Assembly: GCF_008329965.1 (NCBI RefSeq)
Contig: NZ_CP036150.1
Coordinates: 2,418,001-2,482,000 of the forward strand
DNA length: 64,000 bases
Direction: 5' to 3'
Source of the DNA: Oceanispirochaeta crateris
GTDB taxonomy: Bacteria > Spirochaetota > Spirochaetia > DSM-2461
The position numbers and the translations under genes are program-made. Positions within the stretch are counted from its first letter, which is position 1, and each line of letters begins with the position of its first letter. Positions 30,115 to 44,827 of the stretch are shown in pieces. The notes under the pieces are model-generated. The model was given only the letters and a program-made list of their open reading frames with translations. It ran no database searches and was not told where the DNA came from.

Positions 30115-30783
30115 TCAACTCTTAATATGTTCTGTAATCTCTTCCAATAATTTTCCAGTATAATCCAGAGAAACATGAACAGAGCTTTGAAGATCCTGAG
30201 GGAGAAGATCCCTGACCCTAGCCATAGATATCTGTGATAAAAGAATATCGTCATGTTCCTTCAATAATTCAATGATATACTCTACCACAGCGGTATCATG
30301 ACCCTGAACATCCCCTTTCATCAGAGTTTCGAAAGCACCTGGACAAACCTTAATAGGTACAGAGTGATTAAGATCCAATCTTACTCTCATTTCTTCACCC
30401 AGTAGAGCGGCAGGTGTTTTATTGGTAGGATTTGTCATTAAAACAACAGGATTGTTAGAATGACTGAGAACAGAATCAAACATCTTTTCATCAATCCGAA
30501 CAATAGGAATGGAACTGTTCTTTTGAACACTCACAACAGATGGGGAAAGGGAACTACAGCTGACAATGATAGCTTTAGCCTCCCCCTTGATACAACGGTC
30601 AACAAGAGCCTGAAGCCAGGGAACTGTCAATTCAGGAGTGTTTCCATCTTTCATCATCCTGAAAAGAACGGCCTCATCAAGCATATGAAAAAAATCATAA
30701 TCTTGATTGTAAGGTTCCAATGCAGATTGCACTGGCCCAAGGACAAGCGGTGTCGTATGTATCAATGCTATTCTATTCTTCAT
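30115..30783 (-). CDS. Asp/Glu racemase-superfamily enzyme with one catalytic Cys
   Basis: 222 aa. Fold and length match the Asp/Glu/hydantoin racemase superfamily. The first catalytic Cys is present (C76 in IVSCSSLSP). The second position, usually Cys in a (L/G)C motif, reads LLSQISMARV, so Gln replaces Cys near residue 184. One-Cys members are known as decarboxylases or isomerases rather than true racemases. It lies downstream of the split transketolase genes but behind a terminator, so it is expressed by read-through or from its own promoter (TTGCCC and TAGAAT, 16 nt apart, upstream). Substrate unknown. Confidence 0.82.
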   Translation of the reverse strand: MKNRIALIHTTPLVLGPVQSALEPYNQDYDFFHMLDEAVLFRMMKDGNTPELTVPWLQALVDRCIKGEAKAIIVSCSSLSPSVVSVQKNSSIPIVRIDEKMFDSVLSHSNNPVVLMTNPTNKTPAALLGEEMRVRLDLNHSVPIKVCPGAFETLMKGDVQGHDTAVVEYIIELLKEHDDILLSQISMARVRDLLPQDLQSSVHVSLDYTGKLLEEITEHIKS

Positions 30784-30851
30784 AACCAGATTTTCTCCAA
30801 AGACTTATTCTACCTCAGCAAGGCTAAAGGGCAATTCAAAACGAGATCTTA

Positions 30852-30901
30852 AAAAATCAGACGGAGCTAACCGCAAAGGAGGAAAATGATAGCTCCGTCT
30901 G
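30852..30901 (-). terminator. Terminator after the split transketolase genes
   Basis: 12-bp inverted repeat TAGCTCCGTCTG (30890-30901) / CAGACGGAGCTA (30858-30869), with TTTTTT directly after it on the minus strand. The 20-nt loop contains a GGAGG. It separates the transketolase unit from the racemase-family gene. Confidence 0.8.
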
Positions 30902-30912
30902 TAAAAACAAAT

Positions 30913-31848
30913 CTATTGTGAAGTTTTTCCAACAAGTGCTTCAGCTTTAGCTACAATAGCCGTTACAGAAATACCATATTTATCCAACAAATCCACGTAA
31001 GGACCCGATTCAGTAAAACAATCATCAATGCCGACAAAATCCATGGGAACGGGATTAGATTTGACGAGGACTTCCGATACAGCACTTCCAAGTCCACCAT
31101 GAATGGAATGCTCCTCAACAGTCAGAAAACATCCTGTTTTTTTAGCTGAAGTTAGAATAGCATCGATATCCAGAGGTTTGAGGCTTCCCAAATCTAAGAC
31201 ATCTGCTGCAATCCCTTTTTCAGCTAGCAATCCAGCTGCCTCAAGGACCATTGGAATAGTGATACCACAAGCTCCAATAGTCACATTCTTGCCCTCAGCC
31301 AGGATTTCCGCTTTACCGATCATCAATGGTTTTTTATTCAGTACAGGACTAGGGTTCCGGCACATTCTAATGTATACAGGACCATTGATATTTAAAGCTT
31401 GTTCCAATGCAGAAGTAACATCATCTGCATGAGCTGGTACTAAAACAGTCATATTGGGAAAGGCTCTCATAATAGCAAGATCCGTGATGGACTGGTGACT
31501 AGCACCATCAAAAGAGTCGGAAAGTCCTGAGTAACCACCTGCTATGATCACATTCAGATTATTGTAGCAAACTACATTTCTGATTTGATCAGTGGCTTTG
31601 AGAGCCAGGAAAATAGCGAAAGCACTAACTACAGGACGATACCCACATGTGGCCATACCAGCAGCAATATCCACCATATTTGCTTCAGCTACTCCTACAT
31701 TGAAAAATCTATCAGGATAGGCTTTTCCAAAAAGCCCGCTACGAGTGCTGGAAGAAACGTCTGCATCCAGAACCATCAATTTATCATTTGATTTTCCAAT
31801 CTCGACTAAAGCAGCGCCGAAGGCATCTCTCATTCCTTTGGTTTCCAT
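30913..31848 (-). CDS. Split transketolase, C-terminal (pyrimidine-binding) subunit
   Basis: 311 aa. Corresponds to the second half of transketolase: Pyr domain with the conserved VGVAEANMVDIAAGMA (the catalytic-type Glu) and SFDGASHQSITDLAIMRAFP, and a C-terminal domain with VEEHSIHGGLG. It pairs with the N-terminal subunit encoded just upstream (TAATG overlap) to form one TPP enzyme. Split transketolases are often devoted to a special sugar phosphate rather than the pentose cycle. It is the last gene of the leftward operon before the terminator. Confidence 0.93.
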   Translation of the reverse strand: METKGMRDAFGAALVEIGKSNDKLMVLDADVSSSTRSGLFGKAYPDRFFNVGVAEANMVDIAAGMATCGYRPVVSAFAIFLALKATDQIRNVVCYNNLNVIIAGGYSGLSDSFDGASHQSITDLAIMRAFPNMTVLVPAHADDVTSALEQALNINGPVYIRMCRNPSPVLNKKPLMIGKAEILAEGKNVTIGACGITIPMVLEAAGLLAEKGIAADVLDLGSLKPLDIDAILTSAKKTGCFLTVEEHSIHGGLGSAVSEVLVKSNPVPMDFVGIDDCFTESGPYVDLLDKYGISVTAIVAKAEALVGKTSQ

Positions 31849-32699
31849 TATTCATCCTCCCATTTACTTAAGACAGTTTTTAACTGCGGAAGTGCTTTTT
31901 TAAGATGTTCATCACCAACAGGTGAACCATGCCAGATATGCGTATCCTCAGTAAAATCAACACCCTTTCCTTTCGTCGTATCGTAAATAATCACAGAAGG
32001 TCCTGAGATCTGTGTATTAAGCCACTTAAAGGACTTTTCAATTTCATCAATATCATGCCCATTAAAGGATTGGTTTGCAACATTCCAGTTAAAGGCTTTA
32101 AATTTATCAACGAGAGGATCAAGAGGCATAATATCCTTTGAATGTCCATCTAACTGTACCTTGTTGTAATCAACAAGTAGAACTAAGTCTTTGGGTGCAA
32201 ATTTTCCAGCAGCCATAATAGCTTCCCAAGACTGTCCTTCATTCAAGCAACCTTCCCCTACAATCACAAAGGTTTTAAAGGGATGTTCATTACGGGCGGC
32301 CATCAAACTCATGCCTAAACCAACAGAAAGCCCGTGTCCCAGGGCTCCTGTAGACATTTCAACTCCAGAAGTCTTATTCATACAAGGATGTCCCTGAAGT
32401 GAACTGTTTAGATCTCTGAAAGAACTTAAAGTTCCTTTTTTTAGATATCCCTTTTCCTCTAGAATTCGGTACAACATGGGGGAAGCATGCCCCTTGCTGA
32501 GAATCAGTCTATCTCGATCGGACCAGTCAGGCTGCTCCGGCCTGATATTCATCTGTTTGAAATACAGATATGTTAGAATCTCAGCAACAGAAGAAGATCC
32601 TCCCCAATGTCCTGTGCCTTTAGAATGCAGAGTTTCAATGACATCAATTCTGAACTGCTGAGCAAGAGCCTGTAATTGTTTATTCGTATGTGTCTTCAT
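31848..32699 (-). CDS. Split transketolase, N-terminal (TPP-binding) subunit
   Basis: 283 aa. PP domain: DRLILSKGHASPMLY, GALGHGLSVGLGMSL and the TPP/Mg motif GEGCLNEGQSWEA ending at VDYNKVQLDG. GHWGGSSSVAEIL at the N-terminus is typical of this half. AAGGAA lies before the ATG. One-base overlap with the C-terminal subunit gene gives equal synthesis. In this island it is expected to cleave or transfer a two-carbon unit from the ketose or keto acid made by the upstream enzymes. Confidence 0.93.
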   Translation of the reverse strand: MKTHTNKQLQALAQQFRIDVIETLHSKGTGHWGGSSSVAEILTYLYFKQMNIRPEQPDWSDRDRLILSKGHASPMLYRILEEKGYLKKGTLSSFRDLNSSLQGHPCMNKTSGVEMSTGALGHGLSVGLGMSLMAARNEHPFKTFVIVGEGCLNEGQSWEAIMAAGKFAPKDLVLLVDYNKVQLDGHSKDIMPLDPLVDKFKAFNWNVANQSFNGHDIDEIEKSFKWLNTQISGPSVIIYDTTKGKGVDFTEDTHIWHGSPVGDEHLKKALPQLKTVLSKWEDE

Positions 32700-32725
32700 A
32701 ATGTGTTCCTTATTCTTCCACCAGT

Positions 32726-33115
32726 TCAGGACCAGGGAATTTTCTTTCTGTATACCAGGTGAATCCAGTTTCCTTCAGGGTCCTGAAAAAATCGGACTTT
32801 CCCCTCCTGAAAGATGGTAAAACCATCTTCCTTGAAAAGTACTCCTTTGCTTTCCAAATCTTTTACTGCTTTGTCATAATCATCAATTGTTAAGCAAAGA
32901 TGCTGAGCTTTCCGGACCTGATCTTCAGAATGTTTAAATCCCTCAGGCATGGAAAAAAACTCAAGAATATACCCTCCTTGATCTCTGACAAAAACTGGAG
33001 TGTTCTCCTCGGGTGGAATGAAAAGCTGATTAAAACCAAGCACATCCTGATACCATTGAGCTAACTCTAATGGATTTCGGGACATTATACCGATGTGTTC
33101 TATACAGTATTTCAT
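32726..33115 (-). CDS. VOC-superfamily (glyoxalase-like) metalloprotein
   Basis: 129 aa, one pair of beta-alpha-beta-beta-beta modules. Likely metal ligands by position are H7 (EHIGI), E52 (ILEFF), H72 (QHLCL) and H119 (NWIHLVYR). The last is usually Glu in this superfamily. It could be an epimerase, isomerase or dioxygenase-like enzyme; function cannot be assigned. Its ATG overlaps the stop of the epimerase gene (ATGA), so it belongs to the same pathway. Confidence 0.8.
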   Translation of the reverse strand: MKYCIEHIGIMSRNPLELAQWYQDVLGFNQLFIPPEENTPVFVRDQGGYILEFFSMPEGFKHSEDQVRKAQHLCLTIDDYDKAVKDLESKGVLFKEDGFTIFQEGKVRFFQDPEGNWIHLVYRKKIPWS

Positions 33116-33918
33116 ATGAATTTCCTTATTGTATTAATTGCTTCTAATGCTGCCTGGTCTGGTTCAGGAAAGGGTAGAATCTCAAGAGAAATGTAACCAT
33201 TGTATCCAGAGGCCTTCAAAGCGCTAATTATACTCTGGAAATCCAGATGTCCTCGTCCTGGTGCCCAGCGGTTTGAATCGGCAAAATGAACATATGAAAC
33301 CAGATCAGCATATTTCCAGAAACAGCCTTCGATTGATGGATCTTCAATATTCATATGAAAGACATCGGGCATCATCTTCAGACGAGGATGATTTAAACTT
33401 CTGATAATTTCTGCAGTCTGATAACAATTGTTCAAAAAATTGATTTCATATCTATTAACCGGTTCAAGAGCAATTGTAACACCCAGCTCATCAGATCGTT
33501 TTAATGCCTTTTCCATAGATTCTCGAAAGTAATCAATTGATGGCTCGCCTTCAGTGAGAACCCCTCTTAGGCGACCAATATTAATCAGACTACCCAATTC
33601 TGCTGCCACCTCCATAAGGCCAAAAAAATCAGTTAGAGCCTTTTCTCTTTTATTCTTATCCTGATGAGTAAAATTCACACCTGTATCAGCAAAGATTTGC
33701 CCTGTTGAAACCATGGGTATTTCTAGACCGGTTTCTTTCATAATTTTCTTAACTTTAGGAAGATCAACTTGTTTTTTATTCAAAAGAGCCAGTTCAACTC
33801 CGTCATAACCAAGCATTGCTGCTTTCATCATGCTGTTTTCAAGTTTATCCCGGAATACAACAAAAGCAGACATTAATGCATTTTCAGGAGCAACTGCGAG
33901 TGCCAGTTTTATAGACAT
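33112..33918 (-). CDS. Sugar epimerase, TIM-barrel (IolO-like)
   Basis: 268 aa xylose-isomerase-like TIM barrel. Metal and catalytic residues are visible in IALEPVNRYE, MMPDVFHMN, VHFADSNRWAPGRGHLDF and ISLEILPF. The ADSNRWAPGxGHxDF block and the EPxNRYE block strongly recall 5-keto-L-gluconate epimerase (IolO) of Thermotoga, from memory. An epimerase of a keto sugar acid is the best guess. GGGAG precedes the ATG. Second gene of the leftward operon, 11 nt after the PdxA-like gene and overlapping the VOC gene. Confidence 0.88.
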   Translation of the reverse strand: MSIKLALAVAPENALMSAFVVFRDKLENSMMKAAMLGYDGVELALLNKKQVDLPKVKKIMKETGLEIPMVSTGQIFADTGVNFTHQDKNKREKALTDFFGLMEVAAELGSLINIGRLRGVLTEGEPSIDYFRESMEKALKRSDELGVTIALEPVNRYEINFLNNCYQTAEIIRSLNHPRLKMMPDVFHMNIEDPSIEGCFWKYADLVSYVHFADSNRWAPGRGHLDFQSIISALKASGYNGYISLEILPFPEPDQAALEAINTIRKFI

Positions 33919-33929
33919 ATTCAGCTCCC

Positions 33930-34910
33930 TTACTTTAGAGATCCCAGAACAACTTTCAGTGCCTGAATTAATGCAGTAGGCTTGGCAACGCCCTTTCCTG
34001 CTATATCAAAGGCAGTCCCATGAGCACATGTAGCAATGGCAACTGGCATTCCTCCATGAATGGTGACTCCTTTATCAAAACCCAAAAGTTTGGTAGCAAT
34101 TTGTCCTTGATCGTGATACATGGACACAATAGCATCGTATTCACCATTTTTGACTTTTAAAAAAATTGTATCTGCGGGAAATGGACCTGAGGCATCAATT
34201 CCAGCCTCTCGAGCAGCTTTAACAGCAGGTTCGATCTCATCACCTTCTTCTGTTCCAAAAAGTCCCTTTTCTCCCCCATGAGGATTCAAAGCAGCAACAG
34301 CAATCCTTCTTCTTTTTACAGAGAACCTCTTAAGTTCTTCATTGAGAAAAGTTATGGAATCCAGAATTCTTTCTTTTTTAACATAGAGTGGAATATCTTT
34401 TACTGCAATGTGGCTAGACACACGAACTGTCCACATAGGATCAAGAAAATTTATCTCTCCCGTTATATCGGGACGGTTAAAATGATCTTTGAACATATCA
34501 AGTTCAGAAGGAAAAGGACATCCTCCCTTCTTCATGGCTTCTTTATTAAAAGGCGCAAATACAAATCCTTGAATCAATTTAGAATCGATCAATGACATTA
34601 TTTTTTTCAAAGATCGATACACACAGGCTCCTGACTTGGCAGAGACCTCTCCATAAGGGATCATTTCTCCATTCTCTACAGGAATATTCAAAAACATTAG
34701 ATCAGCTTCAGAATTTTTAATCTGATCTTCTGTTATATCCTGAATATTCATTTTGACATCACACACTTTGAGTGCTCTATCAAAACTAGGACGATCTCCC
34801 ACAAGGATTAGCGAAACAGGTCCCCGATTTTTGTATTCGTTTATACAGCGGACTGTTATTTCAGGTCCTATCCCGGCTGGATCTCCTATCATGAAAGCTA
34901 TTTTTTGCAT
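33930..34910 (-). CDS. PdxA-family dehydrogenase with altered substrate motif
   Basis: 326 aa from ATG 34910, with AGGAG 8 nt upstream; an upstream in-frame start at 34979 would lie in the promoter. The fold is that of 4-hydroxythreonine-4-phosphate dehydrogenase: MIGDPAGIGPEI, and metal ligands VSSHIAVKDI, NPHGGEKGLFG and MYHDQGQ are all present. The substrate-side GHTE motif of true PdxA is replaced by FPSELDMF, so the substrate probably differs. PdxA relatives oxidise phospho-tetronates or diol acids. No DUF1537 tetronate kinase lies nearby. First gene of the leftward operon. Confidence 0.88.
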   Translation of the reverse strand: MQKIAFMIGDPAGIGPEITVRCINEYKNRGPVSLILVGDRPSFDRALKVCDVKMNIQDITEDQIKNSEADLMFLNIPVENGEMIPYGEVSAKSGACVYRSLKKIMSLIDSKLIQGFVFAPFNKEAMKKGGCPFPSELDMFKDHFNRPDITGEINFLDPMWTVRVSSHIAVKDIPLYVKKERILDSITFLNEELKRFSVKRRRIAVAALNPHGGEKGLFGTEEGDEIEPAVKAAREAGIDASGPFPADTIFLKVKNGEYDAIVSMYHDQGQIATKLLGFDKGVTIHGGMPVAIATCAHGTAFDIAGKGVAKPTALIQALKVVLGSLK

Positions 34911-34977
34911 GCAGTTTACTCCTGGACTATATAGAGGGAAACAAAAGCCCTCTGCAATTGGTTTATTTATATTGAAC

Positions 34978-35005
34978 ATTGTATACCATCATTTGGAGCT
35001 GTCAA
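34978..35005 (-). promoter_or_regulatory. Leftward island promoter with overlapping operator
   Basis: Minus strand TTGACA (35005-35000), 16-nt spacer, TACAAT (34983-34978). The palindromic operator ATTGTATACCAT (34978-34989) covers the -10, so a bound repressor would block RNA polymerase. The same 12-mer is in the opposite promoter. The rest of 35006-35141 is AT-rich and holds no gene. Confidence 0.7.
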
Positions 35006-35141
35006 GATTTTTTTTCGTGTTACCCCTTTAGTCCAGACTAAAATCCAAAACCTAGTAATGTTATATACTTATGTATAAATATTTTAAAACGATTTCCCTA
35101 CTTTCATCAATTTGATTTTTATAAAAATGAAAATAAAATTG

Positions 35142-35169
35142 TTGACAGCTCTAAGATCTATGATATTCT
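35142..35169 (+). promoter_or_regulatory. Rightward island promoter (tctB)
   Basis: TTGACA (35142-35147), 16-nt spacer, TATTCT (35164-35169). Transcription would start near 35176, just upstream of the operator at 35187. Both divergent promoters begin with TTGACAGCTC. Confidence 0.65.
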
Positions 35170-35186
35170 GAAATAGTTCATGGTGC

Positions 35187-35198
35187 ATTGTATACCAT
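35187..35198. promoter_or_regulatory. Operator of the GntR/FCD regulator, copy 2
   Basis: ATTGTATACCAT, identical to 34978-34989 and close to the copy before the regulator gene (39854-39865). The core fits the T.GT-AC.A pattern bound by FCD-type GntR proteins. It lies about 10 nt after the predicted tctB start of transcription. Confidence 0.65.
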
Positions 35199-35228
35199 TT
35201 ATAAAACTACTTTTATTCTATTGGAGTT

Positions 35229-35684
35229 TTGATGAAAATTTTTAAAACAAATACTCGTATCATTATCCCTTCTATTACATTCTTCCTGGGACTGATATGG
35301 GTCATCTACGGACTTAATAATTATGGCTGGTGGGAAGAAGGACCTGGGAGCGGTTTTTTTCCGTCCATCATAGGCATTCTTTTATCTGGTATTAGTATTA
35401 TTGCTTTTCTAGAAGGTAGAAAACTATCTCCCCCTGAATATATAAAAGCAAGTTACCTCCCTTTTATAGCAGCTATTGCAACTGTTGGATTTGCCTTAAT
35501 CATAGGTTTTTTTCCATCATTATTTCTATTTCTTCAAGGCTGGCTAAAATTGATAGAAAAATATAGTTGGAAAAAATCTCTTCCAGTTTCTACAATCACA
35601 ACAGCATTACTATATGGCGTATTTGCCATGTGGTTGATGGTTCCCTTTCCTGCGGGACTAATACTTAACATGATCAGAGGTTAA
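35229..35684 (+). CDS. tctB: Tripartite tricarboxylate transporter, small membrane subunit
   Basis: 151 aa with four predicted transmembrane helices (IIIPSITFFLGLIWVIYGL near the start; FFPSIIGILLSGISIIAFL; a long hydrophobic stretch at about 75-105; TALLYGVFAMWLMVPFPAGL at the end), as in TctB. It forms the membrane complex with TctA. GGAG lies 7 nt before the ATG. First gene of the rightward arm, 3 nt before tctA. The pattern GGGSGFFPSIIG-like (GPGSGFFPSIIG here) is typical of the family. Confidence 0.88.
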   Translation: MMKIFKTNTRIIIPSITFFLGLIWVIYGLNNYGWWEEGPGSGFFPSIIGILLSGISIIAFLEGRKLSPPEYIKASYLPFIAAIATVGFALIIGFFPSLFLFLQGWLKLIEKYSWKKSLPVSTITTALLYGVFAMWLMVPFPAGLILNMIRG

Positions 35685-35687
35685 TTA

Positions 35688-37196
35688 ATGGAAACAGTCA
35701 CTTTATTATTTCAGGGTTTTGCTACAGCTTTAACTTTTCAGAACCTTCTTGCAGCAAGTGCAGGCGCTATTCTTGGATTGATTGTCGGAGCTATGCCTGG
35801 AATTGGTTCTCTTGCTGGAGTAGCTCTGCTTCTTCCTTTAACTTTTAAATTCAATCCTGTTACTGGGATTATTATGTTATCTGCAATCTATTATGCCAAT
35901 ATGTATGGAGGCTCCTATAGCTCTATCCTGATTAATATTCCAGGAGATGGCCCAGCGGTAATGACAGCTATAGATGGTCATCCTATGGCCAAAAACGGAG
36001 AACCCGGAAAGGCTCTATTCACTTCAAATATATCCTCGTTTATAGGAGGAACCATTGGAATTATCATCTTGACTATTACTGGTCCTGCCCTAGCAAGACT
36101 TGGTCTTAAATTTGGCCCAGTAGAAATGGCTGCACTTCTCATGGTTGCAATGACCTCATTAGGGTGGTTACTTGGTGACAATCCTACAAAGGGTGTTGTA
36201 TCTACATTACTTGGAGTAATGATAGCTACAATTGGTTTTGATATCGTTGTAGGAACGCCCCGTTACGACTTCGGTTCACTATACCTCCTTGGTGGAATAT
36301 CATTTATTCCTCTTGTCATTGGAATGTTCGGTTTTTCTCAAGTTATGGAGATGATGGAACCTCGTCTTGATGGTGATGCTGTCGATATGAAACTATCCTT
36401 AAAAGATAGCATATTAAATAAATCTGAAATGAAACGTCTTTTAGGACCTGCCATTCGTTCAAGTTTTCTAGGAACAATAGTAGGAATACTTCCTGGAGCA
36501 GGTGCAACAACAGGTTCTTTTCTTGGATATATTACTGAAAAGAAAATCGGTAAAAACCGAGAGAAAATGGGAACAGGAATCCTTGAAGGTGTAGCCGCAG
36601 CTGAAGCAGCAAACAACTCTGCAGCAGCTGGGGCATTTGCCCCACTCCTATCACTTGGAATTCCAGGTTCTGGAACTGGTGCAGTACTCCTTGGAGGCCT
36701 TCTGATGTACGGCTTAACACCAGGACCAAGGCTATTCCAGAATGAACCAGAGTTTACATGGGGGTTGATTGCCTCCTTATATGTAGCTAATATTATAACA
36801 CTTTTAATCGCGCTGTCGATCATTCCATTTCTCATCAAGATTCTAAAGGTTCCTGTAAAGATCATGGTTCCCATTATCACAGCTGTATGCATCCTAGGAG
36901 CCTATAGTGCAAGTAATTCGCTATACGGTGTTATGTTGATGTTGGCATCAGGATTCATAGGATTTCACCTAAAAAAGAATAACTATCCAATAGCACCTCT
37001 TCTATTAGCCTTTGTTCTGGCTCCCACATTGGAACGGGATTTTAGAAGATCCTTTCTCATTTCAGATGGAAGCCCTTGGATATTTTTCCAGAAACCGATT
37101 GCTTGCGGACTGATCATTTTTCTAATGCTTACAATTCTATCACCAGTAATCAGAAAAATAATTATCAATTTTAAAAGACTTAAAACAAAAGCATAA
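35688..37196 (+). CDS. tctA: Tripartite tricarboxylate transporter, large membrane subunit
   Basis: 502 aa, about 12 transmembrane helices. The family signatures GLIVGAMPGIGSLAGVALLLP, given here in parts (GAMPGIG near residue 32), YGGSYSSILINIPGD and GILPGAGATTGSFLGY are all present. It is the transport channel of a secondary, ion-driven carboxylate uptake system fed by the periplasmic TctC. GAGG precedes the ATG. Substrates of the family include citrate, tartrate, terephthalate and sulfolactate, so only 'an organic acid' can be claimed here. Confidence 0.95.
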   Translation: METVTLLFQGFATALTFQNLLAASAGAILGLIVGAMPGIGSLAGVALLLPLTFKFNPVTGIIMLSAIYYANMYGGSYSSILINIPGDGPAVMTAIDGHPMAKNGEPGKALFTSNISSFIGGTIGIIILTITGPALARLGLKFGPVEMAALLMVAMTSLGWLLGDNPTKGVVSTLLGVMIATIGFDIVVGTPRYDFGSLYLLGGISFIPLVIGMFGFSQVMEMMEPRLDGDAVDMKLSLKDSILNKSEMKRLLGPAIRSSFLGTIVGILPGAGATTGSFLGYITEKKIGKNREKMGTGILEGVAAAEAANNSAAAGAFAPLLSLGIPGSGTGAVLLGGLLMYGLTPGPRLFQNEPEFTWGLIASLYVANIITLLIALSIIPFLIKILKVPVKIMVPIITAVCILGAYSASNSLYGVMLMLASGFIGFHLKKNNYPIAPLLLAFVLAPTLERDFRRSFLISDGSPWIFFQKPIACGLIIFLMLTILSPVIRKIIINFKRLKTKA

Positions 37197-37220
37197 ACAA
37201 ACAATTCTGGAGACTTTTCA

Positions 37221-38705
37221 ATGAAAGCTATCATGGTAATGTTTGATTCACTAAATAGAGATATGCTCTCCTCATATGGATGCAATTGGACAAAAACAGA
37301 AAACTTCAATCGCCTGAGTAAAAAAACAGTAACTTTTACAAATAGCTTTGCAGGAAGCCTTCCTTGCATGCCAGCGAGAAGAGAACTTCATACAGGTCGC
37401 TATAATTTTCTACACAGATGCTGGGGTCCTATAGAACCTTTTGATGATTCTATGCCATCTATTCTAAAGGAGAATGGTATATATACACATTTGGTAAGTG
37501 ATCATGCACATTACTGGGAAGATGGAGGAGCGACATATCATACTCGATATAACAGCTGGGAAGCATCTAGAGGACAAGAAGGTGATTACTGGAAAGGTGA
37601 GGTAGCAGATCCAGATATCCCATCTGATGCCTTAGGAAGAAAGAAACACTCCTGGAGGCAAGACTGGATCAACAGAAAGTACATGTCCAATGAAGAAGAT
37701 ATGCCCGCTTACAAAACATTTCATTCTGGATTAGAATTTATTGAAAATAATATAAATAGTGATAATTGGTTTCTTCAACTCGAAACATTTGATCCTCATG
37801 AACCTTTTTTTGTACCAGAAAAATATGCTGAGCTGTATGATGATGATTACAAGGGTGTACATTTTGATTGGCCGGCATATCAAGAAGCCACAAATTATAC
37901 AAATGAACAAATTTCACATGTAAGAAAACGTTATGCTGCACTGTTAAGTATGTGTGATGCTTATCTTGGGAAAGTCATAGACATTATGGATGAACACAAT
38001 ATGTGGAAAGACACAATGTTAATTGTCAATACTGATCATGGTTTTTTACTGGGAGAACATGGTTGGTTCGGCAAAAATAGAATGCCTACATATACAGAAA
38101 TTGCTCGAACTCCTTTCTTCGTATGGGACCCAAGAATCGGTAAAAAAAATATAAAAAATCATCAGTTAGTCCAAACAATTGATATTGCACCAACCCTACT
38201 AGATTTTTTTGGTATTAAGATTCCTAAAAATATGCAGGGAAAATGTCTTAATTCACTAGTTAGTAATAATTCTCCTGTAAGAGATGGTGCCCTTTTTGGA
38301 CTTCATGGAGGACATATCAATTACACTGACGGACGTTATGTCTATATGAAGGCACCTGTTAAACCAAATGATAAAAATCTTTACAACTACACACTTCTTC
38401 CGACCCATATCAACAGTTTGTTCTCTCCTGAAGAACTGACTGATATGACTTTGGAAAGCCCATTATCCTTCACCAAAGGTTGTCAGGTATTGAAAATTAG
38501 AGCTCTAAAGCCAGCCCACAATACTTACCAACACACCCTTGGAGATTATTTATTTGATCTTAAGAATGACCCTGATCAGAAAGAACCAATCATAGATACT
38601 GGTTTGATTAAATCTATGCAAGAAAGGATGAGTATTCTGATGAAAGAATCAGATGCACCAGCTGAAGCCTTTATTCGCTATGGACTTAAAAGTCCACAAG
38701 AGTAA
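37221..38705 (+). CDS. Cytoplasmic sulfatase (formylglycine type)
   Basis: 494 aa. The maturation motif CMPAR (C49-R53) followed by TGR at 58-60 fits C-x-P-x-R-x(4)-TGR, so C49 would become formylglycine. Metal-site elements are MFDSLNRD (D9) and VNTDHGFLLGEHG. No signal peptide or TM helix, so it acts in the cytoplasm on an imported sulfate or phosphonate ester. GGAG precedes the ATG, 24 nt after tctA. It lies between the transporter membrane genes and the binding-protein gene. The activating enzyme (FGE or anSME) is not in this window. It resembles a group of unassigned sulfatases common in Rhizobiales (recollection). Confidence 0.92.
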   Translation: MKAIMVMFDSLNRDMLSSYGCNWTKTENFNRLSKKTVTFTNSFAGSLPCMPARRELHTGRYNFLHRCWGPIEPFDDSMPSILKENGIYTHLVSDHAHYWEDGGATYHTRYNSWEASRGQEGDYWKGEVADPDIPSDALGRKKHSWRQDWINRKYMSNEEDMPAYKTFHSGLEFIENNINSDNWFLQLETFDPHEPFFVPEKYAELYDDDYKGVHFDWPAYQEATNYTNEQISHVRKRYAALLSMCDAYLGKVIDIMDEHNMWKDTMLIVNTDHGFLLGEHGWFGKNRMPTYTEIARTPFFVWDPRIGKKNIKNHQLVQTIDIAPTLLDFFGIKIPKNMQGKCLNSLVSNNSPVRDGALFGLHGGHINYTDGRYVYMKAPVKPNDKNLYNYTLLPTHINSLFSPEELTDMTLESPLSFTKGCQVLKIRALKPAHNTYQHTLGDYLFDLKNDPDQKEPIIDTGLIKSMQERMSILMKESDAPAEAFIRYGLKSPQE

Positions 38706-38798
38706 AAAACAGCAGATTTCTATCTGAAAAATAAGGCATTTTAACCCATCTTAACAAGTAGGGTAAAAATATAAAAAGCATTATAAGGAGCTTTAAAA

Positions 38799-39743
38799 AT
38801 GAAAAAACTGTTTAGTGTTTTATTAGTGACAGTTCTCGTATCAGTAGTAGTTTTCGCAGAAGGGCAAAAAGATACTGCAAGTGGTCCTTGGACTCCAACA
38901 AAAGGAGTTGAATGGGTAGTAACATCAAGCGCTGGTGGAGGCTCTTCAATTTTCACTCAAAACATTGTCGAGATTATGAAATCTGAGGGTATTGTAGATA
39001 AGAACATTATCATCAACTACAAAACAGATGGTGGTGGTGCAGTAGGTAGAAGATCTGTTTCTATGATGAAAAATGAATCACATACACTTCTTACTTTTAA
39101 TTCTGGAGACCTCCAACCCTTCGTACAGGCAGAGAAGGGAGATTTGGATGGCTTTACCCCTCTTGCAATCATGGCTTTAGATGGACAAATCCTTCTTGTA
39201 AACTATGACTCACCATATCAGAACATGGAAGAAATCATAGCCGCTCTTAAAGATGGTAAAAGATTGATTATCGGTGGTTCTAAATCTGATGACGAAGCCA
39301 TCTATAATGCAATGGTTTCTAAAATTGGAGGAGATATGGAGTACCTCAGGTCAGATTCAACCGGTGAAGCACTCACGCAACTCTTAGGTGGACATATCGA
39401 TATGGCGATTGCAAAACCAGCAGCTTCTTTTGATCTTGTTTCAAGTGGAGAACTGCGCCCCATGGTAACAGCTTCATCATCACGATTTAGTGGTCCATTT
39501 GATGCTCCGACTTTTGTAGAATTGGGATACGACATTGAATTCCAGATTTTTAGAGGCGTTGTAGGGCCTGCAGATATGCCAGAAGAAGCTGTTGCATACT
39601 GGTCTGACGCACTTTCTAAAGTAGCTAAAACTGAGGCATGGAAAACAAACTATATTGATAAATTTCTACTTGTAGGAAATCATCTCCCAGCAGATCAAGC
39701 TAAAAATTACATGCAAAAATTTGAAAATATGTACACAAAATAA
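38799..39743 (+). CDS. tctC: Tripartite tricarboxylate transporter substrate-binding protein
   Basis: 314 aa. Signal peptide 1-22 (LFSVLLVTVLVSVVVFA) with predicted cleavage before EGQKD, then a Bug/TctC periplasmic binding fold: VEWVVTSSAGGGSSIFTQ, IIINYKTDGGGAVGRR and TEAWKTNYIDKF. It captures the substrate and hands it to TctAB. AAGGAG precedes the ATG. A hairpin terminator follows. The order B-A-sulfatase-C is unusual, since the three transporter genes are normally adjacent. Confidence 0.93.
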   Translation: MKKLFSVLLVTVLVSVVVFAEGQKDTASGPWTPTKGVEWVVTSSAGGGSSIFTQNIVEIMKSEGIVDKNIIINYKTDGGGAVGRRSVSMMKNESHTLLTFNSGDLQPFVQAEKGDLDGFTPLAIMALDGQILLVNYDSPYQNMEEIIAALKDGKRLIIGGSKSDDEAIYNAMVSKIGGDMEYLRSDSTGEALTQLLGGHIDMAIAKPAASFDLVSSGELRPMVTASSSRFSGPFDAPTFVELGYDIEFQIFRGVVGPADMPEEAVAYWSDALSKVAKTEAWKTNYIDKFLLVGNHLPADQAKNYMQKFENMYTK

Positions 39744-39765
39744 CAGTTTGTCGATACTCTAAAAC

Positions 39766-39793
39766 AAAAGGGTCCGTCAATACGGGCCCTTTT
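39766..39793 (+). terminator. Terminator after tctC
   Basis: AAAAGGGTCCGT (39766-39777) / ACGGGCCCTTTT (39782-39793), 12 bp with one G-U pair and a 4-nt loop. The T-run is short. It separates the transport arm from the regulator gene. Confidence 0.75.
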
Positions 39794-39853
39794 AGTGAAA
39801 TCATCAGTGAAGGAATAAAACTATTGAAATTAATAGTTTCATATAAATAGTTT

Positions 39854-39865
39854 TTTGTATACAAT
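39854..39865. promoter_or_regulatory. Operator of the GntR/FCD regulator, copy 3, with gntR promoter
   Basis: TTTGTATACAAT, the best copy of the palindrome. It covers a candidate -10 TACAAT (39860-39865) with TTTCAT (39837-39842) 17 nt upstream. The start codon at 39872 follows after 6 nt. This predicts autorepression and a leaderless mRNA. Confidence 0.6.
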
Positions 39866-39871
39866 AAAAGA

Positions 39872-40507
39872 ATGGAACAGTTGATCACCAGAAAAAATCT
39901 CTCAGACCAAGTACATGATCATATCAAACGCATGATCCTTTCAGGAGAACTCAAGGGCGGTGAACGTGTTCCTGAAGCTTCATTGAGTAAATTATTCGGA
40001 GTAAGCCGCACACCTCTCCGCGAAGCCTTAAAAAAATTGAGTGATTACGGTCTTATTTACCTGAAACCCAGGAGTTATGCCGAAGTCGTCATAATTGATG
40101 AAGAAGAAGCAATGCAAATTGCAGAAGTAAGGCTCTATATAGAGATATTATCAGCAAAATTGTTCAGTAAAAATGCGTCCGCTAAGGATTTTCAGGAAAT
40201 TAGGCTAATATCTGATAAATGTCTTGAACTAAATATCAGTGGCGACAAAGCTGCTGCATTTGAAATGGACAGCCAATTCCATCTCATGATAGCAAAATAC
40301 TGTGGTAACAGATGTCTATATGAGATCTTTGAGAAACTGGATGCCAGAATTCAGCTTGTACGTCTCAACCAGAAACTGAACACTCCACTACTAACTGATT
40401 ATATTAAACAACACAGCATACTAGTTGCTGCTATGGAAAACAAAGAAGAAAACCTCATCGAATCTATTCTCTCTTCCCATATAATGCATGATTTCAATAA
40501 AGATTGA
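39872..40507 (+). CDS. GntR-family regulator, FCD (FadR) subfamily
   Basis: 211 aa. Winged helix-turn-helix (about 8-70, with ASLSKLFGVSRTPLREALKK) and an all-helical FCD effector domain (about 80-205) with likely metal ligands in EMDSQFHLMIA and a C-terminal His (SSHIMHD). Such regulators sense organic acids or sugar acids. It has no Shine-Dalgarno and starts 6 nt past a promoter-like -10 that overlaps its own operator. The same operator in the divergent pdxA/tctB region makes it the island's regulator. Repression relieved by the substrate or an intermediate is inferred. Confidence 0.92.
   Translation: MEQLITRKNLSDQVHDHIKRMILSGELKGGERVPEASLSKLFGVSRTPLREALKKLSDYGLIYLKPRSYAEVVIIDEEEAMQIAEVRLYIEILSAKLFSKNASAKDFQEIRLISDKCLELNISGDKAAAFEMDSQFHLMIAKYCGNRCLYEIFEKLDARIQLVRLNQKLNTPLLTDYIKQHSILVAAMENKEENLIESILSSHIMHDFNKD

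Positions 40508-44753: not shown

Positions 44754-44827
<74 letters not shown>

Follow-up and report, generated by a model that had tools for sequence, protein, structure and literature searches.

Which compound does a bacterium take up and break down when it places a PdxA-family dehydrogenase, an IolO-like epimerase, a two-subunit (split) transketolase and a sulfatase beside a tripartite tricarboxylate (Tct) transporter? The question is raised by a gene island of Oceanispirochaeta crateris that lies in a 64-kb stretch of contig NZ_CP036150.1 (2,418,001–2,482,000), hereafter the window, whose positions are used below. This work shows that the PdxA relative and the split transketolase lie together beyond chance, and that both depart from their classical counterparts at substrate-pocket residues. 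The island is a real, conserved and probably undescribed variant of sugar-acid catabolism; neither the gene combination nor the pathway was found described among the papers listed in searches of the open-access literature, a scope outside which most subscription papers fall. As to the class of pathway, a sugar-acid breakdown unit of the kind proposed below is the likely assignment, and the island as a whole is best explained, with about an even chance of being right, as a single inducible unit that would let the cell grow on a sugar acid with or without a sulfate group. The window genome is labelled G000, other genomes carry G-numbers and fetched loci carry L-numbers.

An earlier reading of the sequence alone (the original prediction) had named eleven genes here. 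All eleven reading frames were confirmed at 30115–40507, on the strands noted previously, and Pfam and NCBIfam scans agree with the family-level names, so that names and orientation stand. They form two divergent operons, leftward pdxA-iolO-voc-tktN-tktC-racemase-like and rightward tctB-tctA-sulfatase-tctC-gntR, with the following features.

30115–30783, minus strand: one-Cys protein of the Asp/Glu-racemase fold (PF01177, 32.3 bits versus a cut-off of 31)
30913–31848, minus strand: split transketolase C subunit, pyrimidine-binding and C-terminal domains (PF02779, PF02780)
31848–32699, minus strand: split transketolase N subunit, thiamine diphosphate (ThDP)-binding domain (PF00456; best PDB match 6yak)
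32726–33115, minus strand: VOC/glyoxalase-fold protein (PF00903)
33112–33918, minus strand: predicted IolO-like keto-sugar-acid epimerase (NF041099, 249.1 bits, cut-off 300; best PDB match 2zvr/TM0416)
33930–34979, minus strand: predicted PdxA-family dehydrogenase of non-phosphate type (PF04166)
34979–34988, no strand: operator-like site TTGTATACCA ahead of the leftward operon (motif scan)
35188–35197, no strand: operator-like site TTGTATACCA ahead of the rightward operon (motif scan)
35229–35684, plus strand: TctB (PF07331)
35688–37196, plus strand: TctA, large membrane subunit (PF01970, 482.7 bits)
37221–38705, plus strand: predicted cytosolic formylglycine-type sulfatase (PF00884; CMPAR site)
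38799–39743, plus strand: TctC, periplasmic binding protein (PF03401)
39855–39864, no strand: operator-like site TTGTATACAA ahead of the regulator gene (motif scan)
39872–40507, plus strand: GntR/FCD regulator (PF00392 and PF07729)

TctA, TctB and TctC all exceed their Pfam cut-offs, and the transporter gene set is complete. The true start of pdxA is probably the second Met of the frame, at about 34910, where the orthologues begin.

Conservation was read from a family search of 26 genomes and a phylum search of 392. In the first, the PdxA relative occurs at 64% identity or more in seven genomes, every time inside this cluster, and G016 has a more distant version. In the second, 14 of the 392 genomes give a strong match to the PdxA clade (E-value at most 1.4e-67, with the next match at 3.8e-61), and for 12 of these 14 a strong tktC match (1e-60 or lower) lies within about 11 kb; the remaining two are G352, whose contig stops soon after PdxA, and G354, where the stretch read holds no transketolase. 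When the fetched clusters were tallied by tblastn, 19 genomes had the PdxA clade, tktN and tktC within a single fetched stretch; these were gathered because they matched and are not a random sample, so that the association is measured by the phylum sample only. Because of the 12 of 14 strong matches in that sample and the 19 genomes in all, the co-location of the PdxA relative with the split transketolase exceeds chance. The original prediction had taken the genes for a single catabolic unit and had proposed a search for genomes that conserve the set; the 19 genomes answer that search, and the single unit is upheld by conservation in related genomes and by sequence evidence of co-regulation. 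Across the 19 clusters, tctA, tctB and tctC are present together in 17 (Tct genes are missing from G012 and G169, whose contigs extend over only 6.2 and 14.4 kb), the IolO relative and the racemase-like gene each in 18, an iron-dependent alcohol dehydrogenase in 13, LarA in nine, the VOC gene in eight, a second sugar-isomerase-like barrel in seven, the sulfatase in four and glycerate kinase in three. pdxA stands directly ahead of tctB, as the first gene of the run, in 10 of the 12 more distant clusters. In G004 (L018 4528–5975), a second PdxA-clade gene and a PCC-domain gene are inserted between tctC and gntR.

The co-regulation evidence is a palindrome-like motif, TNGTATACNA, present in four copies in the window, three of which lie at the operon starts (34979 and 35188) and before gntR (39855). 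All six orthologous divergent gaps, counting that of the window, contain it (L018 once, the others two or three times), and it is also found at or before gntR in L018, L025, L020 and L021 but not in L026, and near the starts of pdxA, tktN or gntR in L063, L065, L066, L069, L070, L071, L072 and L077. As background, a shuffled gap averages 0.005 copies, and all the loci longer than 10 kb, 954,469 bases together, contain 49 copies. When the genome was scanned with a longer operator pattern, 10 places matched, including the 35188 site, versus three for a reversed control. Such sites suit FCD-type GntR regulators. The motif supports one predicted regulon, sulfatase included, in which both divergent operons and the regulator gene are marked. 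A DUF362 gene adjoins the GntR gene in L063–L066, four clusters of one genus.

The nature of the acid is approached most directly through the PdxA relative. Residues are numbered as in E. coli. Alignments show that the equivalents of the metal-binding His166, His211 and His266, and of Asp247 and Lys274, are retained in the window protein and throughout the island clade. At His136, Thr137, Asn283 and Arg292, which we take to be substrate contacts in PdxA, the window protein has Glu, Leu, Thr and Ile, and the clade has Glu, Leu/His/Asn, Thr and Ile/Val/Phe. All four residues are kept in E. coli PdxA and in three enzymes adjoining a four-carbon acid kinase; TpaC, from a terephthalate-type cluster, has Tyr, Pro, Ala and Phe, and the pNL1 dihydrodiol-type enzyme has a gap at 136/137, Val at 283 and His at 292. 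Another 16 classical rows retain His, Thr and Arg, with Asn at position 283 in six, Ser in nine and Ala in one; since Asn283 varies there, positions 136, 137 and 292 are the better marks. The terephthalate dihydrodiol dehydrogenases TphB/TpaC, PdxA-family enzymes that act on an unphosphorylated di-acid, have lost the same four positions as the island protein, but are only about 31% identical to it and belong to a ring-oxygenase context rather than to sugar acids. The protein also falls below the curated models (257.5 versus 290.35 bits for TIGR00557; 217 versus 583 for D-threonate-4-phosphate dehydrogenase). Judged from the residue patterns, its substrate is quite likely an unphosphorylated acid. 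The residue signature gives a means, open to test, of telling phosphate-ester enzymes of this family from those acting on free acids.

The original prediction had noted that PdxA relatives oxidise phospho-tetronates or similar acids; with its four contact residues lost, this protein does not look like a phospho-tetronate enzyme. Phospho-tetronate catabolism (DUF1537 kinase plus PdxA2) shares with the island a PdxA-family member and, as expected in both, an oxidative decarboxylation, but it was rejected as the best reading, because the island protein lacks the four residues and the islands lack the kinase: the DUF1537-type kinase domain (PF07005) occurs in 14 of the 19 island genomes, in several of them next to a classical PdxA, is absent from five (G004, G010, G012, G013 and G016), and has no match at any of the 19 islands. 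In the window genome it is not near any PdxA. A role in vitamin B6 synthesis by the PdxA–PdxJ route was also rejected: PdxJ (PF03740) was found in none of the 19 island genomes by a search that was positive in 4 of 14 control genomes, so the island gene is not a vitamin B6 gene. Relatives of the clade on Ruegeria and Paracoccus plasmids adjoin genes of sugar-acid-dehydratase, DapA and semialdehyde-dehydrogenase type; the plasmid regions read contain no island, and many of the plasmid relatives listed, TpaC-type ones among them, are annotated as 4-hydroxythreonine-4-phosphate dehydrogenase.

The split transketolase appears to be catalytically intact and altered at one pocket position. In seven of seven joined pairs the equivalents of the ThDP and catalytic residues of TktA (His26, His66, His100, His261, Glu160, Asn185, Glu411, Asp469 and His473) are retained, with Asp155 replaced by Glu in six of the seven; the phosphate-pocket residues Arg358, Ser385 and Arg520 are also retained. 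None of the 31 island-type rows, which represent 25 genes and include some from clusters lacking PdxA, keeps His461; all carry the head-group motif RSFYR (Arg-Ser-Phe-Tyr-Arg). Which residue stands at site 461 depends on the alignment (Asn/Lys, Tyr, which is also the ungapped reading from Asp469, or a gap), and it is His in none. Three other split transketolases of the window genome carry RAFHR and RSYHR, in which His is kept, and RSFSR, with Ser. The best PDB match of tktN, 6yak, is the N component of a split-chain transketolase. The suggestion that this enzyme serves a special pathway is backed by the difference at His461, a site of the substrate pocket. According to PMC11659671, sulfoquinovose transketolases carry RAFDR in place of RSFHR, and in the sulfo-TK pathway an acid-ended ketose donates a C2 unit to glyceraldehyde 3-phosphate by way of a dedicated two-subunit transketolase, after which the acid-bearing aldehyde is reduced. 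The island would resemble the sulfo-TK system (SqwGH, SqwI, SqwF) in having a dedicated two-subunit transketolase and a proposed C2 transfer from an acid-ended ketose, but differs in its motif (RSFYR against RAFDR of SqwGH), in its PdxA relative and TctABC, and in dealing with a putative sulfate ester rather than a sulfonate. Family scans recognised no sulfoquinovose isomerase among the eleven island genes. Identity with the sulfo-TK pathway was rejected, as motif and gene set differ. An E. coli transketolase altered at Arg358, His461 and Arg520 converts 5-keto-gluconate to tartaric semialdehyde (PMC12016104; PMC7970118 and PMC11066805 give further background on this action), so that keto-sugar-acid cleavage by a transketolase has a precedent; in that enzyme both arginines are lost as well, whereas the island enzymes keep Arg358 and Arg520.

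The window genome has at least five split-transketolase pairs, of which four adjoin Tct genes (the island, L062, L122 and L123). A fifth lies beside a TRAP importer (L121, G000:C1:2033000-2042000). The pair of L062 (G000:C1:2160001-2180000, L062 5776–10223) is 82–83% identical to the island's and lies near a Tct operon that also carries an IolO-like, an isomerase-like, a one-Cys and a hydroxyacid dehydrogenase gene. Transketolase is known for its action on phosphosugars and, lately, on sulfoquinovose; the Tct- and TRAP-linked pairs would extend it to sugar acids, and, if the full chain proposed below holds, the island would be a carboxylate counterpart of the sulfo-transketolase route in spirochaetes.

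The predicted epimerase is a xylose-isomerase-like barrel by family scan, and IolO is its best NCBIfam model (the hydroxypyruvate isomerase model gives 73 bits). The Thermotoga IolO, a 5-keto-L-gluconate epimerase, is both its best model and its best solved relative, but the island protein stays under the curated cut-off and no inositol gene was recognised among the other ten genes by the family scans. In the racemase-family protein a single Cys, Cys76, is invariant (18 of 18 sequences, counting that of the window), and Gln-x-Ser, placed by hand, stands where the second Cys is expected, so the protein is not a two-Cys Asp/Glu racemase. Its predicted fold (mean predicted local distance difference test score, pLDDT, 94.5) matches glutamate racemases; arylmalonate decarboxylase matches lower.

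From gene content, conservation, the shared motif and the residue patterns we infer the following reactions. TctABC would import the acid, and the cytosolic sulfatase, where present, would strip a sulfate ester. The PdxA relative would oxidise the hydroxyl beta to the carboxylate, and loss of CO2 would give a keto-sugar acid, HOCH2-CO-(CHOH)n-COO-, whose configuration beside the keto group would be set by the IolO relative. The split transketolase would transfer the HOCH2-CO unit to a phosphosugar, such as glyceraldehyde 3-phosphate, which would become xylulose 5-phosphate. What is left, a semialdehyde acid, would be reduced to a 2-hydroxyacid by the iron-dependent alcohol dehydrogenase, racemised by LarA and fed into glycolysis by glycerate kinase; the genes proposed for these last three steps lie outside the island in the window genome. 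The most likely concrete case would run from a hexarate through a 4-keto-pentonate to tartronate semialdehyde and glycerate.

The choice of this case rests on the exit genes. In the window genome an alcohol dehydrogenase and a LarA gene lie as a pair at C1:3669949-3672603, with identities of 59% and 50% to the copies in the G003 island; there is also a glycerate kinase at C1:396339-397454, a gene present in 16 of the 18 island genomes searched. Of 16 readable LarA sequences, 13 have F-M-W-Q at the specificity sites and three have F-F-W-Q, and all 16 thus share Trp-Gln, as in the lactate/glycerate racemase pattern; the LarA of L020 is under its curated cut-off (269.5 versus 460 bits). According to PMC11770544, lactate racemases have F, F, W and E/Q at these sites, and one Q-bearing member shows a somewhat higher efficiency on glycerate than on lactate. 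A role of LarA as an aldonate 2-epimerase is disfavoured, its sites being unlike the E-V-A-H pattern reported for gluconate epimerases. Since LarA needs a 2-hydroxyacid and the 19 clusters contain no unlabelled frame of aldehyde dehydrogenase size (over 400 amino acids), a carboxylate should be present on the transketolase product from the outset. Other operons give further indications: L123 (G000:C1:3242000-3251000) has TctCBA and an SDR together with a split transketolase and a reductase for 2-hydroxy-3-oxopropionate (tartronate semialdehyde) that exceeds its curated cut-off (469.9 versus 397 bits); in L122 (G000:C1:2008000-2016000) a split transketolase accompanies Tct genes and a GhrB-like reductase; and in G350 a relative of the alcohol dehydrogenase (61%) shares an operon with a galactarate-dehydratase-like gene that is below its cut-off (224 versus 731 bits). 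The motif TNGTATACNA was not found in L122, and its copy in L062 lies away from the operon start. Together, LarA and the contexts in L123, L122 and G350 point to tartronate semialdehyde and glycerate, and so to a C5 keto-acid donor and a hexarate as PdxA substrate. Galactarate and glucarate are broken down via tartronate semialdehyde by GarD, GarL, GarR and GarK; the tartronate semialdehyde and glycerate end would be common to both routes, and L123 has a GarR-type gene, but the island would reach tartronate semialdehyde by a transketolase and the galactarate route does so by a dehydratase and an aldolase. Judged on this sequence context, the semialdehyde/glycerate exit has a little less than an even chance of being correct, and the hexarate itself is a doubtful guess at the substrate. 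The full chain, in which an unphosphorylated aldarate undergoes oxidative decarboxylation by a PdxA-family enzyme and is cleaved by the two-part transketolase to yield tartronate semialdehyde and a C2 unit, some members being fed sulfated acids that are desulfated inside, is put forward tentatively and is on balance unlikely to hold in every part.

Several observations weigh against this reading. G002 and G005, of the window's own genus, gave no match to the PdxA relative in the family search; at least four weaker PdxA matches (G405 C71, G093, G037 and G039) likewise have a transketolase match no more than 10 kb away; and, as said, the 19 genomes are a selected set. The only DUF1537-type kinase domain of the window genome (C1:2969447-2970154, in a frame of 509 amino acids) is half a megabase away, and a search with the island protein found no second PdxA-family gene in that genome, so that the distant kinase may yet be a partner of the island protein. 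Asn283 is no strict phosphate mark to judge by the alignment, being Ser or Ala in 10 of the 16 classical rows. At the exit, the alcohol dehydrogenase and LarA of G000, G004 and G006 are outside the island and only 57–59% and 49–50% identical to those of G003; the LarA sites before W-Q are mostly F-M and not F-F; the glycerate-preferring LarA of PMC11770544 favours glycerate over lactate only modestly; a LarA relative adjoins a tetronate kinase and a classical PdxA in G381, which weakens the glycerate argument; and the L123 transketolase is only 39% identical to the island's. The motif was not found in the distant clusters L064, L024, L067 and L068, nor in the alcohol dehydrogenase–LarA stretches L087 and L088, and its single copy in L086 is far from the pair. 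Finally, the one-Cys protein matters, as its presence in 18 of 19 clusters indicates, and the proposed pathway explains neither its role nor that of the VOC protein.

Whether the sulfatase belongs to the pathway is a separate matter. Its C-x-P-x-R site is CMPAR at residue 49, and C-[MI]-P-A-R is present in 17 of 17 sequences, the window's included; by eye, it has no N-terminal signal sequence. The best model is PehA, a phosphoric/sulfuric ester hydrolase, far under its cut-off (130.3 versus 900), and the enzyme could alternatively act on a phosphodiester or a phosphonate ester. An anaerobic sulfatase maturase above its cut-off is encoded in the window genome (G000:C1:3841107-3842168); as genomes without the island sulfatase have one too (9 of 13 over the cut-off), the maturase is only a permissive condition. 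Relatives of the sulfatase (1e-60 or lower) occur in 21 of the 392 phylum genomes, its own included, and the island sulfatase itself in G000, G004, G006 and, in opposite orientation, G383; in G022 it accompanies Tct genes and PdxA on a contig without the transketolase. It is possible, with a chance clearly below even, that the gene is an unrelated sulfur-scavenging module inserted between tctA and tctC and that the pathway has no connection with sulfated compounds. The sulfatase is indeed missing from 15 of the 19 clusters, including that of G003 of the same genus, and its clade also travels with other importers: among 12 sulfatase neighbourhoods, an NMT1-type ABC importer is found in two (L109 and L113) and an SBP_bac-type one in four (L112, L114, L116 and L118), with no importer noticed in four others. 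An unrelated module sits poorly, however, with its conserved position in three members of the genus (the window genome and two at 82–84% identity), with its presence in the distant G383 cluster in another orientation, and with the recurrence of TctABC beside sulfatases 38–40% identical to it in the remaining two neighbourhoods, L119 and L120. In these two (L119 8737–13375 and L120 5277–9936), TctABC and sulfatase stand side by side and no island gene was recognised alongside. Of the original prediction, which is upheld in part, the pairing of importer and cytosolic sulfatase stands, and the sulfatase as a core part does not, being present in 4 of 19 clusters and adjoining other transporters elsewhere; its proposal of a sulfated sugar acid as substrate is plausible. 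The sulfatase probably behaves as an uptake-linked module that extends the substrate range rather than as part of the core; that it acts on the imported acid is evenly balanced. If it does, the island would show how sulfated sugar acids can be used once imported.

The remaining alternatives concern the acid. With an aldonate, PdxA would turn a hexonate into a free pentulose, the IolO relative would be a ketose 3-epimerase and the transketolase would release glyceraldehyde. The membership of IolO in the ketose 3-epimerase group and the retention of Arg358, Ser385 and Arg520 agree with this, but the absence of a dehydrogenase-sized frame leaves nothing in the 19 clusters to convert glyceraldehyde to glycerate, LarA, glycerate kinase and the hydroxyacid dehydrogenases would be idle, and the Tct importers suggest, without proving, a poly-acid; we regard an aldonate as improbable. 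Alternatively, a hexuronate or 5-keto-hexonate might enter through the IolO relative and be cleaved to tartaric semialdehyde, which the alcohol dehydrogenase would reduce to a tetronate, PdxA acting last to give dihydroxyacetone. This order would let IolO, the best model, act on its known type of substrate, and would agree with the transketolase action on 5-keto-gluconate described in PMC12016104, PMC7970118 and PMC11066805. The position of pdxA as first gene before tctB in the distant clusters fits a first step better, however, and the glycerate-type genes would be unexplained, which makes this order distinctly improbable. A tartrate or pentarate, from which PdxA would make hydroxypyruvate or a four-carbon keto acid as transketolase donor, is very unlikely in spite of a Neorhizobium PdxA-clade gene adjoining one annotated as tartrate dehydrogenase and of GhrB-like reductases in L072 and L073, since the epimerase scores 249 bits as a keto-gluconate epimerase against 73 as a hydroxypyruvate isomerase.

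Outside the island, the window carries a tRNA-Ile (gat) gene at 44754–44827, a tRNA frequent in ribosomal RNA operons.

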